From: Candidatus Palauibacter poriticola
Lineage (GTDB): Bacteria; Gemmatimonadota; Gemmatimonadetes; Palauibacterales; Palauibacteraceae
Assembly (NCBI GenBank): GCA_012270965.1
Contig: JAAXHJ010000041.1
Coordinates: 21,169-85,168, forward strand
Direction of reading: 5' to 3'
Length of the DNA: 64,000 nucleotides
Both the position numbers and the translations under genes were made by a program. A model generated the notes under the pieces. That model saw nothing but the letters and a program-made list of their open reading frames with translations, ran no database searches and was not told the origin of the DNA. How positions within the stretch are numbered: the stretch's first letter is position 1; each line of letters begins with the position of its first letter. Of the stretch, positions 18,401 to 24,386 are shown piece by piece.

Positions 18401-18558
18401 TAGACGCATACCAAGCGGTGTTCAACGAGCTGTCCGCGGAGTTGGACGAGCACCTGCGGACCCTGGAACGGCTGCTCGGCGACGACCTGCCCCATCTGAA
18501 CCGGCGGCTTGAGGAGGCGGGACTCCCGCAGATAGAGGTCGGATCCGCACGCGACTGA
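15490..18558 (+). CDS. Secreted VPS10/sortilin-type (BNR-like) beta-propeller protein
   Basis: WRSIGPDRGGR and repeated S.DGG.TW blades; signal-peptide-like N-terminus; ATG at 15490. Confidence 0.88.
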   Translation: MYDSVIPFLTSRPTHLCLALLTLSPPTAMTAGLEAQDYTSLLPPMEWRSIGPDRGGRSIAVAGHAERPFEYYFGATGGGLFKTTDGGTTWTPVTDGQVGSASVGAVAMAPSDPDIVYIGMGEVQLRANVLQGDGVYRSDDAGATWRHLGLADTHAIGRIRIHPTDPGRAYVAALGHPFGPNSERGVFRTIDGGETWERVLFRDEHAGAVDLAMDPSDPDVLYATLWQVYRKPWRLWSGGEGTGIFKSTDGGDTWTELTRNPGLPTGVLGKITVTVSGTDPSRVWANVEAGQGGLYRSDNGGRTWEFVNGHRDIWQRAFYFQRLVADPVDRNTLYILNFRLMRSTDGGRTLESVPETHVDHHDLWIDPTNPQRMIDGNDGGGVVTVNGGRTWTPMRYPTAQIYRLATTGDFPYHVCGAQQDNTTVCVSSESAHLRDPASPNAEWMYAVGGGESGYIAPHPADPDIFYAGATNSLTRYDRETGAVTDIQPWPRIVMGEPARDMPERWNWTYPIAVSPLAPHALYAGSQHLWRSLDEGESWARISPDLIRAEPETLDDSGGPIVRDQDGPEIYGTLYSIGLSPHEPETIWTGSDDGLVHVSRDGGDTWRDVTPPGMPPHTRVMTVEVSPHHPASAHVSGIRYEMDDRSPYAWRTDDYGASWTRIGNGIPDGAFVRVMREDPKRAGLLYAGTERGVFVSLDGGSSWSDLSFRLPDTPVTGISVEERDLVISTHGRSFWILDDIETLRQLRTDVAGADVHLFRPADAVRRSIPAVIDFRVNAAGRHARLDILTGEREHVRTLVNQTMAEGTHRTRWNLRYPGAVTFPGIVLEGGTPSLGPWAPPGRYVARLTVDGVTREQTFDVNPDPRLGDMPAAALTDQFRLAMAIRDAESQANESVILARDLLARIDVIATETDDADLKGRMSGFAAGIEAVAGELYQLRNQSPKDKIAFPIKLNDRLTGLRSHLERGDGTPVDAYQAVFNELSAELDEHLRTLERLLGDDLPHLNRRLEEAGLPQIEVGSARD

Positions 18559-18569
18559 TCGAAACTTGC

Positions 18570-18603
18570 CGTCCGTATGCCGTCATGCGACACTTTACGG
18601 ACG
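18570..18603 (+). promoter_or_regulatory. Candidate autoregulatory operator: inverted repeat CGTCCGTA-N18-TACGGACG
   Basis: Perfect 8-bp arms at 18570-18577 and 18596-18603, immediately 5' of an in-frame ATG at 18609 of the HTH antitoxin. Confidence 0.5.
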
Positions 18604-19181
18604 ATGGGATGCTTGCCCTTCATCGGGAGCGGTTGGTGCAGGTTCTGAGCCCCCCTCACCCGGGGGAATTCATTAGGGTGGAAGTCCTCGAGCGTCGTGG
18701 CCTGACCGTGGTCGAGGCGGCGGCGGCGGTCGGCGTTTCACGCCCCGCACTGTCGGCGTTTCTCAATGGCCGTTCGGACCTCTCCGGGACCATGGCACTG
18801 CGCATCGAGAAGGCGTTCGGCGTCAAGATGGAGAAGCTCATGCGGATGCAGGCGGACCACGACAGCGCACGGATTCGGAGACAGGAGGACGAGATCCGCG
18901 TCAAGCGGTACGGAACGCGGGCCGTGCGGGAAGGGTCGGCGCCCTACGATGCTCTCCACATCGACAGCGCGGTGATGCGTCGCCTACGGGAAGAAGCCGC
19001 ACGGCGGCGGACGACGATGTCCGAACTCGTGGCGGCGGGGCTAAGGCGCGTGCTGGACGAGCCGGTGTCCGGCGAATCGAAATCTGACGCGCTGGAGCCA
19101 CTCCCTTCTTGGCGTGGTGGTCAGCCTCTGGTGGACATCTCCGACCGGGACGCGCTGTACCGAGTGATGGACGAGGAGTAA
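18585..19181 (+). CDS. Fused antitoxin: HigA-type HTH plus VapB-like C-terminal segment (start could be 18609)
   Basis: HPGEFIRVEVLERRGLTVVEAAAAVGVSRPALSAFLNGRSDLSGTMALRIEKAFGV...IRVKRY (HigA family), then DALHIDSAVMRRLREEAARRRTTMSELVAAGLRRVL (VapB/RHH-like). Confidence 0.82.
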   Translation: MRHFTDDGMLALHRERLVQVLSPPHPGEFIRVEVLERRGLTVVEAAAAVGVSRPALSAFLNGRSDLSGTMALRIEKAFGVKMEKLMRMQADHDSARIRRQEDEIRVKRYGTRAVREGSAPYDALHIDSAVMRRLREEAARRRTTMSELVAAGLRRVLDEPVSGESKSDALEPLPSWRGGQPLVDISDRDALYRVMDEE

Positions 19182-19185
19182 GGCG

Positions 19186-19617
19186 CTGGTCTTCGACACC
19201 AACGTACTCGTGTACGCCGCGACCGAAGACTCGGACCTCCATCTCGCCTGCCGGCGGCGGCTGGAAGAGGCGCGTCGCGGGCCTTGGCCGTCCTTCCTCA
19301 CATGGAGCGTCTGTTACGAGTTCCTGCGCGTGACGACCCACCCGCGCGTGATGACGTCACCGCAGCGACCCGCGGAGGCTTGGCGCTTTCTTTCGGAACT
19401 ACTGAAGTCGCCCGGGATCGATCTCTTGACCGCCACCGAGCGTCACGCGGCCGTCTTGGCACAGACGATGGCGGAGCTGCCGGAGATCCGCGGCAGCCTG
19501 ATGCGCGACCTGCACACGGCCGTCCTGATGCGCGAGCACGGTGTGGGCCGGATTTGCACGCGCGACGCCGGCTTCCGTCGTTTTCCGTTCCTCCGCGTCA
19601 TCGATCCGCTGGCCTGA
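19186..19617 (+). CDS. PIN-domain (VapC-like) toxin
   Basis: VFDTNVLVYA...YEFLRV...RDLHTAVL...CTRDAGFRRFP acidic motifs; in-frame start is CTG at 19186, 4 nt after the antitoxin stop. Confidence 0.83.
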   Translation: MVFDTNVLVYAATEDSDLHLACRRRLEEARRGPWPSFLTWSVCYEFLRVTTHPRVMTSPQRPAEAWRFLSELLKSPGIDLLTATERHAAVLAQTMAELPEIRGSLMRDLHTAVLMREHGVGRICTRDAGFRRFPFLRVIDPLA

Positions 19618-19649
19618 CGCGGGGACGAATCGCTCTTGTTCCGTCGTCG

Positions 19650-20915
19650 CTACACGCGGGCGGCGATCACTCCGAGGAGGCGGTCGACGTCGGCGCGGTT
19701 GTTGAACATCGCGACGGCGGCGCGGAGGAGCGCCCCTCCCTCCTGGTAGGTGAAGAACACGCCCTCCGCCCGCAGCGCGTCCCCTAGTTCATCCGGATCC
19801 AACCCGTGGTAGAAGCTCACGATCGCCGACGGGTTGGCGGGCGGCGTGAACAGCTTCATTCCCAGATCCGCCGCGCCCTGCCGGAGCTGGCCCGCAAGCG
19901 CGTGCGTGTGCTCGGCGATCCGCTCCAAACCCACATCGCCGAGGAACCCGAGGGCGGCGTCCATCGCGGCGATCGGACCGTACGCCGGGTTCGCGTACTC
20001 GTACTTCCGCGCGTCGGTCTTCAGCCGGTACTGGTGCTCGGGGAGCGTCTCGGCCACGTGCCCGTGCCCGAAGCGGTCGGGCCGCATCCACTCGTGGTGC
20101 TCGCGGCGCACGTACAGCGGCGCGCAACCGAAGTCGGCGAAGAGCCACTTGTAGCCGTTGCCGCAGGCGAAGTCGACGCCCTCGTCGTGGAGGTTCGTGG
20201 GGAAGGTGCCGAACGCCTGGATGCCGTCGGCGAACAGGTAACCGCCGCGGGCATGCACGATCTCGGCCAGCGTCGGCAGGTCGTGCCGGAACCCGTTCCG
20301 GTTCGAGACCCATGCCACGCTGATGAGGCGCGTGCGGTCGTCGGTGTAGGCGTCGTAGTCCTCGGGAAGCGCGCGCCCCTCGCGCGAGGGGATGATCCGG
20401 AGTTCGACTCCGTGACGCCGCTCAAGCTCACGGTACACGACAAAGGCGGTGACGAAGTGGAGTTCGTCGATGACCACGTTGTCGCCCGGCTTCCAGTCGA
20501 TCGCCTTGGCCACCATGTTCTCGCCGTCGCTGGTCGAGAAGAGGAGCGCGGTCTCGTCCTCGTCCGCCCCGAACAGGCTCGCGAAGCGGCTGCGGGCGCG
20601 GGCCATGGCCCGTCCGCGACTCCCCGGATCGTTGTAGCTGAGCTTCTCGTCCGCGTACGCGACGAGCGCCTCGTGGACGGGACGCGGGAGCGGCCCCGTG
20701 GAGGCCGTGTTCAAGTACGCGAACTCCTCGGTGACCGGGAACTGATCCCGGATGCCGAGCGGGTCGTCATCCGCACGAGAGCCATCGGTCGGACCCGCCC
20801 TCCGTTCGGCGTTCGCGGCCCTCGGGTCGGTCGCGGCGAGGGCAGGCGCGGCGGGCAAGACCAGCCCCGCGGCGGCGGTCGTCTTGACGAAGTTGCGGCG
20901 GCTCCACGCGTTCAT
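19650..20915 (-). CDS. Aminotransferase class V (PLP-dependent), Tat-exported
   Basis: Tat-like RRNFVKTTAAAGLVLP; GGYLFADGIQAFGTFPTNLHDEGVDFACGNGYKWLFADFG. Confidence 0.88.
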   Translation of the reverse strand: MNAWSRRNFVKTTAAAGLVLPAAPALAATDPRAANAERRAGPTDGSRADDDPLGIRDQFPVTEEFAYLNTASTGPLPRPVHEALVAYADEKLSYNDPGSRGRAMARARSRFASLFGADEDETALLFSTSDGENMVAKAIDWKPGDNVVIDELHFVTAFVVYRELERRHGVELRIIPSREGRALPEDYDAYTDDRTRLISVAWVSNRNGFRHDLPTLAEIVHARGGYLFADGIQAFGTFPTNLHDEGVDFACGNGYKWLFADFGCAPLYVRREHHEWMRPDRFGHGHVAETLPEHQYRLKTDARKYEYANPAYGPIAAMDAALGFLGDVGLERIAEHTHALAGQLRQGAADLGMKLFTPPANPSAIVSFYHGLDPDELGDALRAEGVFFTYQEGGALLRAAVAMFNNRADVDRLLGVIAARV

Positions 20916-23863: not shown

Positions 23864-24088
23864 ATGGAAGTCTCAAGGATCACGGCCCGCGGGCAGACGA
23901 CGATCCCGAAGAGGATTCGTGAGCAGGCGAATCTCTCGGAGGGCGATCTCCTGTCGTTCGAAGTCAGGGACGATCACCTGCGGGTCCACAAGATCTCACC
24001 CGACCGGGACGGTTACCTGCACGCCGTATCGGAGGGATTGAACGAATGGTCCTCACCCGAGGACGAGGACGCGTGGCGTGACCTTTGA
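23864..24088 (+). CDS. AbrB/MazE/SpoVT-family antitoxin
   Basis: MEVSRITARGQTTIPKRIREQANLSEGDLLSFEV swapped-hairpin motif. Confidence 0.9.
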   Translation: MEVSRITARGQTTIPKRIREQANLSEGDLLSFEVRDDHLRVHKISPDRDGYLHAVSEGLNEWSSPEDEDAWRDL

Positions 24089-24386
24089 GCCGTACGATGT
24101 CGTCGTCGTTCCCTTCCCCTTGACGGACGAACGGGCGTCCCGGCGGCGACCGGCGCTCATCGTCTCGTCGGAGAGCTTCCACGTGGAACACGGACAATCG
24201 GTTCGCTTCAAGCTCTTCGCGCTCGATCACTCCCTGATCCTCCGCACCGTCGGCAGGCTGGCCGAACGTGACCTTGTGGCCGCGAGCGAGGCTCTCACGC
24301 GCGTGCTGGCGTGCGATCCGCCGGCCGCTGCGGACAGTGCGCTCGCCGAACCGACGAACCCGAACCGGAACCCACCCAACCTGTAG
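24078..24386 (+). CDS. MazF/PemK-family toxin with apparent internal deletion
   Basis: MTFEPYDVVVVPFPLTDERASRRRPALIVS and SVRFKLFALDHSLILRTVGRL match the two ends of PemK-like toxins; the usual intervening ~30 aa with the xMITxA motif is absent. Confidence 0.75.
   Translation: MTFEPYDVVVVPFPLTDERASRRRPALIVSSESFHVEHGQSVRFKLFALDHSLILRTVGRLAERDLVAASEALTRVLACDPPAAADSALAEPTNPNRNPPNL

Follow-up and report, generated by a model that had tools for sequence, protein, structure and literature searches.

A natural HigA–VapB chimeric antitoxin encoded with a PIN-type toxin in Candidatus Palauibacter poriticola

Type II antitoxins are known to be modular and to exchange partners; the steps of such exchanges have rarely been caught. 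A stretch of 64,000 nucleotides from Candidatus Palauibacter poriticola (the window, in which all positions below are counted) holds an antitoxin gene that joins a HigA-type helix-turn-helix (HTH) domain in frame to a VapB-like segment, directly ahead of a gene for a PIN toxin. Palauibacter is a genus of sponge-associated bacteria of the Gemmatimonadota. The locus raises the question of how two antitoxins of different families came to be one protein, and of what each half does. An earlier note, made from the DNA alone, had proposed that the HigA part may serve DNA-binding autoregulation and the C-terminal part neutralisation of the toxin. The analysis speaks for this division of labour on the strength of a HigA-type promoter, a HigA fold, an altered RHH strand, a conserved tail and toxin, and the lack of HigB in the genome. 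We consider it probable that the two genes form a type II toxin-antitoxin operon of VapBC type with a natural chimeric HigA–VapB antitoxin, in which the HigA half regulates and the VapB half neutralises.

The two-gene operon lies between a gene for a BNR-repeat protein, which ends at 18558, and a convergent aminotransferase gene. Its features are:

18566..18600, plus strand: HigA-type promoter/operator by weight matrix (35.8 bits), TTGCCG (−35), 17-nt spacer, GACACT (−10), then TTTACGG
18570..18603, no strand: candidate operator dyad CGTCCGTA-N18-TACGGACG with perfect 8-bp arms (inverted-repeat search; reverse strand second in the matrix scan)
18585..19181, plus strand: chimeric antitoxin, whole ORF as first read, 198 aa, ATG 18585 to stop 19181, open throughout
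18636..19181, plus strand: chimeric antitoxin, likely real coding sequence, 181 aa, GTG start with GGGAG 7 nt upstream
18648..18914, plus strand: HigA/GraA-type HTH domain with recognition helix SRPALSAFLNGRSDLS (TIGR02607, AlphaFold, Foldseek)
18915..18944, plus strand: linker under relaxed constraint (pN/pS 0.63), of low model confidence
18945..19067, plus strand: VapB-type RHH domain with altered strand YDALHID replacing KTTLNID (comparison with standalone VapBs)
19104..19178, plus strand: VapB C-terminal tail LPSWRGGQPLVDISDRDALYRVMDEE, putatively toxin-binding, with terminal helix (residues 171–179); pN/pS 0.25, conserved with standalone VapBs
19173..19178, plus strand: toxin ribosome-binding site GAGGAG, within the last codons of the antitoxin, 7 nt before CTG 19186
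19186..19617, plus strand: VapC toxin (PIN ribonuclease by homology), 143 aa, with D4, E45, D108 and D127; CTG start predicted from a comparison of starts
19650..20915, minus strand: class-V aminotransferase gene (PF00266)

The reading frame had been described as running uninterrupted from HigA into the VapB-like part and as being followed 4 nt past its stop by a PIN toxin with its acidic residues present; both descriptions were borne out. Equally, no HigB-sized ORF is present between 18558 and the antitoxin, as the earlier note had it, so that the HigA half has no HigB partner beside it.

The same fusion, with the same PIN gene 4 nt later, was found in six other Candidatus Palauibacter species (L005–L010), the proteins being 67–76% identical to that of the window; four of these loci were independently met in public MAG contigs (L034–L037). 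Its presence in independent assemblies of seven species rules out an assembly join or a frameshift between the halves, a flaw for which the earlier note had allowed. All seven intact copies adjoin the same aminotransferase gene and the same symporter or BNR gene. The site is empty in G010, where the aminotransferase and symporter genes are adjacent, and holds other cargo in G008 and G002; foreign genes thus enter this site, and species differ in whether they have the module. The gap itself (18558–19650) appears as a small insertion hotspot (L062, L063, L064), occupied by a cysteine synthase-like gene in G008 and an HTH/peptidase-like gene in G002, both identified by eye. A decayed copy is found in G012 (L018/L049): the HigA domain has been cleanly deleted, with the promoter and ribosome-binding site left in place, and an internal part of the toxin is gone. 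Part of the promoter is duplicated in this copy, CCGTATGGCGTCATGCGAC occurring twice.

Selection on the module was assessed from Nei–Gojobori counts; the seven intact copies were compared pair by pair, the pairs not being independent of each other, and mean pN/pS came to 0.31 in the HigA domain, 0.38 in the RHH domain, 0.25 in the tail and 0.30 in the toxin. The joins gave higher values: the linker had 0.63, and the spacer ahead of the tail 0.69. By these ratios, both antitoxin halves and the toxin are under purifying selection, the halves being maintained and the joins not. In the toxin tree, the VapCs of the seven fusion loci group as one clade (100/98), beside standalone VapCs of another Gemmatimonadota family; in the HigA tree, the fusions likewise form one clade (95/96), within the non-fused HigAs. 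These trees indicate that the fusion arose once, in an ancestor of part of Palauibacter. About 1,150 distinct genomes of three phyla (Gemmatimonadota, Acidobacteriota and Pseudomonadota) were searched with profiles and yielded no fusion outside Palauibacter; the larger surveys scored the best 8–9 candidates per genome, some phyla, Actinomycetota for one, lay outside the sample, and independent fusions that are highly diverged could have escaped. The confinement of two-half matches to Palauibacter argues against a common architecture; the survey of homologues that the earlier note had suggested thus returned the fusion and its PIN neighbour in seven species of one genus, with no sign of an architecture that is common or already characterised. 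No plasmid or phage record matched over 80% of the fusion protein, and five matches in viral contigs concerned the HigA half only.

The N-terminal half of the antitoxin matches TIGR02607 (antidote_HigA) over residues 22–99 in the 198-aa numbering, with 69.1 bits against a cut-off of 47.7. The domain is 55–67% identical to HigAs of other Gemmatimonadota and of Acidobacteriota. An AlphaFold model from the seven fusions alone had a pLDDT of 46 and was discarded; a 54-row alignment gave a mean pLDDT of 80.6, with values of 94–98 over most of the HigA domain. The best Foldseek matches of this model were GraA and HigA, operator complexes included, and a sequence search with the antitoxin also led to HigA structures. 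All fusions have the same recognition helix, and the non-fused HigAs whose loci supplied the promoter matrix (see below) have an almost identical one. The HigA half is thus predicted with confidence to adopt a HigA/GraA fold with a conserved recognition helix.

Related higBA loci carry the element TTGACR-N17-AACACTATACRG upstream of higB. At three of them (L012, L013 and L014) no higB or just a remnant of it is left, and higA follows that higBA promoter almost immediately. A weight matrix built from eight promoter sites of non-fused higA genes was run over both strands of the whole window. The top site, at 35.8 bits, was 18566–18600; its own reverse strand came second (8.8 bits) and the next unrelated site scored 4.6 bits. 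The site still ranked first with both promoter hexamers masked. At the other intact fusion loci, the matrix score was 36–41 bits for five and 9.5 bits for the most divergent one (G005), and a matrix site sought upstream of vapB at standalone vapBC loci was not found. A simple sigma-70 consensus scan, whose thresholds demand more matches, returned no promoter; the promoter assignment rests on the comparative matrix. Judged by this comparison, the promoter of the fusion is a HigA-type promoter/operator and not one of the vapBC type. The candidate 8-bp dyad overlaps its −35/−10 region. Loss or decay of higB with retention of the higA promoter was seen at five loci of related Gemmatimonadota and Acidobacteriota (the three above, L016 and L039), and fusions of this kind may start from such solitary HigAs.

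The position of the promoter bears on the start of the antitoxin, which had been placed at ATG 18585 to give 198 aa. This assignment is probably wrong. The ATG lies within the promoter and upstream of the expected transcription start, so that GTG 18636, behind GGGAG, is the likely start of a protein of 181 aa; a GTG start is present at this position in five of the six intact orthologues. The most divergent intact copy, that of G005 (L048), has a compact operator, CCGTAA-N9-TTACGG, with an ATG immediately after it, which suggests a leaderless message.

The domain search for which the earlier note had also called was less decisive for the C-terminal half, where the Pfam RHH_1 match (residues 124–149, 16.8 bits) stays below the cut-off of 20.5. 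The assignment to VapB holds because this region is 46–65% identical to standalone VapB proteins encoded directly 5′ of VapC genes. The tail aligns with 25 or more standalone VapBs and is the most constrained part of the protein. In the AlphaFold monomer model, the RHH helices have pLDDT values of 83–89, the linker is at about 58, and a short C-terminal helix is formed by residues 171–179. The helices are kept and the RHH_1 match is weak; residues of the strand have been replaced. Intact standalone VapBs begin with MKTTL in 31 of 31 cases and have N at position 6 in 28 of 31. All seven fusions keep L5 and I or V at position 7; K2 has become Y, C or D, T3 is always acidic (D or E), position 4 is A or T, and N6 has been replaced by H or R. 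CopG, Arc and other RHH proteins insert every second residue of the strand into the major groove of the DNA. By analogy, the inward-facing residues should be L5 and I7 and the DNA-facing ones K2, T4 and N6, and the simplest reading would be that the RHH strand of the fusions no longer reads DNA. The changes could equally mark the fusion breakpoint, given that all fusions descend from one event and the losses are therefore not independent.

The toxin matches TIGR00028 with 97.1 bits (cut-off 73.6) and PF01850 with 48.2 bits. In a sequence search, the nearest solved toxin structure was that of Mycobacterium tuberculosis VapC43 (PDB 7vwo). The four acidic residues are all kept in six of the seven intact copies; in the toxin of G005, the catalytic Asp108 is replaced by His. 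Fusion-associated VapCs are 52–71% identical to their standalone relatives, which nearly always start with GTG (a few with TTG or ATG), mostly four codons before the DxN motif. At the position of this ancestral start, the seven fusions have GCG, ACT, ACG (four times) or ACC (19183–19188 of the window; L005–L010). Directly after that position, six species have CTG and G007 has TTG; this is the only NTG codon that retains the first catalytic Asp, and no ATG, GTG or TTG in the toxin ORF of the window does so. A mechanical ORF call places the toxin start at GTG 19210 and thereby leaves this residue out. From the comparison of starts, translation of the toxin would have to begin at CTG 19186, and the positions of GAGGAG (7 nt) and of the antitoxin stop (4 nt) upstream of it suit coupled reinitiation. 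Since the normal initiator tRNA initiates inefficiently at CUG (PMC11497404), synthesis of the toxin is probably kept low.

The events and workings that would account for these observations can be outlined as follows. A higBA module minus its higB would have left higA under its own promoter, and this higA would then have been joined in frame, once, in a Palauibacter ancestor, to the vapB of a vapBC pair. The N-terminal HigA domain would dimerise on the CGTCCGTA-N18-TACGGACG operator over the −35/−10 region and repress the operon; the RHH part would still dimerise the protein, its reading of DNA having been lost, and the C-terminal tail would wrap VapC and block the active site. Degradation of the antitoxin would lower repression and leave free VapC to cut RNA (tRNA or other). 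Toxin output would be held down because ribosomes reach the weak CTG start by terminating at the antitoxin stop and reinitiating 4 nt further on. To the fuller claim of a domain swap, in which the promoter and DNA-binding domain of higA captured a vapBC pair, the RHH was demoted to dimerisation and toxin binding, and the toxin came to start at the weaker CTG to suit a changed level of expression, we give an even chance. Counting against the chimera as a working VapBC-type operon are the G005 copy, which has lost Asp108 and has a shorter, diverged operator, the G012 copy, which lacks the HigA domain and part of the toxin, and the inefficiency of CTG as a start.

Other explanations of the chimera were weighed against the same observations. 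The RHH part might still touch DNA, the two domains together reading a compound operator for tighter or longer-range autoregulation. The conserved RHH helices would fit this, as would the His or Arg at strand position 6 of all fusions, which could contact phosphates or bases; however, the fusions lack K2, T3 and N6, which almost every standalone VapB retains, all seven have an acidic residue at position 3, and the only recognisable promoter site is of the HigA type, which makes such two-handed binding unlikely. A bivalent antitoxin, whose HigA half, complete as it is, also neutralises a HigB encoded elsewhere, is a highly improbable reading. HigB-like toxins do occur elsewhere in the genomes of the carriers G003, G005, G009 and G011, but these HigB genes sit beside their own HigA genes. 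In contrast, no match to PF05015 (HigB) was obtained in the whole genomes of G000, G007 and G016, which are 94–97% complete, carry intact fusions and include the genome of the window; at least in these three, where there is no HigB to act on, the HigA half is unlikely to double as an antitoxin of HigB.

A functionless in-frame fusion on its way to decay, its toxin unmade after loss of the start codon, would explain the CTG, the missing catalytic Asp of G005 and the deletion remnant of G012. We regard it as very unlikely: the four acidic residues are intact in six of seven copies, the promoter is well conserved in as many, pN/pS is low in both genes with the relaxed linker and spacer as internal controls, and the TTG that G007 has at the start codon is usable. 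Alternatively, ribosomes might shift into the +1 frame at the antitoxin stop and so make the toxin as an antitoxin–toxin fusion, instead of initiating at CTG; the toxin frame is +1 relative to the antitoxin and open for six codons upstream of CTG, and the overlap is fixed in all seven species. Yet GAGGAG stands at ribosome-binding-site distance from the CTG, and GAG, the last antitoxin codon (before UAA or UGA), is not known to be slippery; we hold frameshifting to be extremely improbable.

The preferred reading, a VapBC-type operon with a chimeric antitoxin, can be placed among known systems. With VapBC systems that have an RHH antitoxin, the locus shares the PIN toxin with four acidic residues, the antitoxin gene in first position, the RHH helices and the putative C-terminal toxin-binding tail. 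It differs from them in the whole HigA domain in front, the altered RHH strand, the HigA-type promoter in place of its own, and a toxin that would start at CTG, one codon after the GTG or TTG of the standalone genes. With HigBA and GraTA (PDB 6f8s, 6fix, 7csy and 4mct), it has in common the HigA domain and the class of promoter/operator; unlike HigBA, where higB lies upstream of higA, it has no HigB gene, its partner is a downstream PIN nuclease, and HigA runs on into a linker and VapB. The locus is VapBC by toxin and tail and HigBA-like by promoter and regulator; lacking a HigB partner, it does not count as a HigBA.

Makarova 2009 (PMC2701414) described HicB antitoxins in which either an Xre-type HTH or an RHH domain is fused on; these likewise join one toxin-neutralising part to different DNA-binding domains. 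The HicB core is not itself DNA-binding, whereas here a complete HTH antitoxin is set on a complete RHH antitoxin with an altered strand. The same study listed 67 Xre–PIN gene pairs, an under-represented combination; these also place an Xre-type antitoxin beside a PIN toxin, but they are Xre proteins with PIN, and a HigA–VapB fusion is absent from that work. A 2025 survey of marine toxin-antitoxin systems (PMC12654330) reported hybrids with exchanged partners, for example YoeB/HigA-1 and VapC/CopG, with no HigA–VapB fusion among them. Those hybrids share with the present locus the exchange of partners between families; they swap whole genes, whereas this is an in-frame fusion of antitoxin to antitoxin. 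No report of a HigA–VapB fusion was found in the open-licence literature. A search of a defence-system library gave a weak HTH match only, and for this reason no role in phage defence is claimed.

One genus thus holds a captured promoter, a captured DNA-binding domain, an altered strand, a shifted toxin start, an empty site and a decayed copy. With these stages at hand, the uncoupling of autoregulation from neutralisation can be asked about directly, as can the fate of toxin-dependent repression after a change of DNA-binding fold. If the domain swap is true, regulation and neutralisation by an antitoxin would be separable and exchangeable in nature, and repression may depart from the VapBC scheme, in which toxin binding alters the affinity of the RHH for the operator. 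Annotation pipelines are likely to label the antitoxin gene simply HigA and to cut the toxin at GTG 19210, without the catalytic Asp.

Two further observations concern the region downstream. A second toxin-antitoxin pair consists of a MazE/AbrB-type antitoxin (23864–24088; PF04014, 36 bits) that overlaps a PemK/MazF-like gene (24078–24386); the latter matches well to only the first 35 of 109 profile positions, and the toxin looks internally deleted. Between 21892 and 23709, the window has one amidohydrolase gene, the more conserved copy of two that stand in tandem in seven other Palauibacter genomes (L043–L049).
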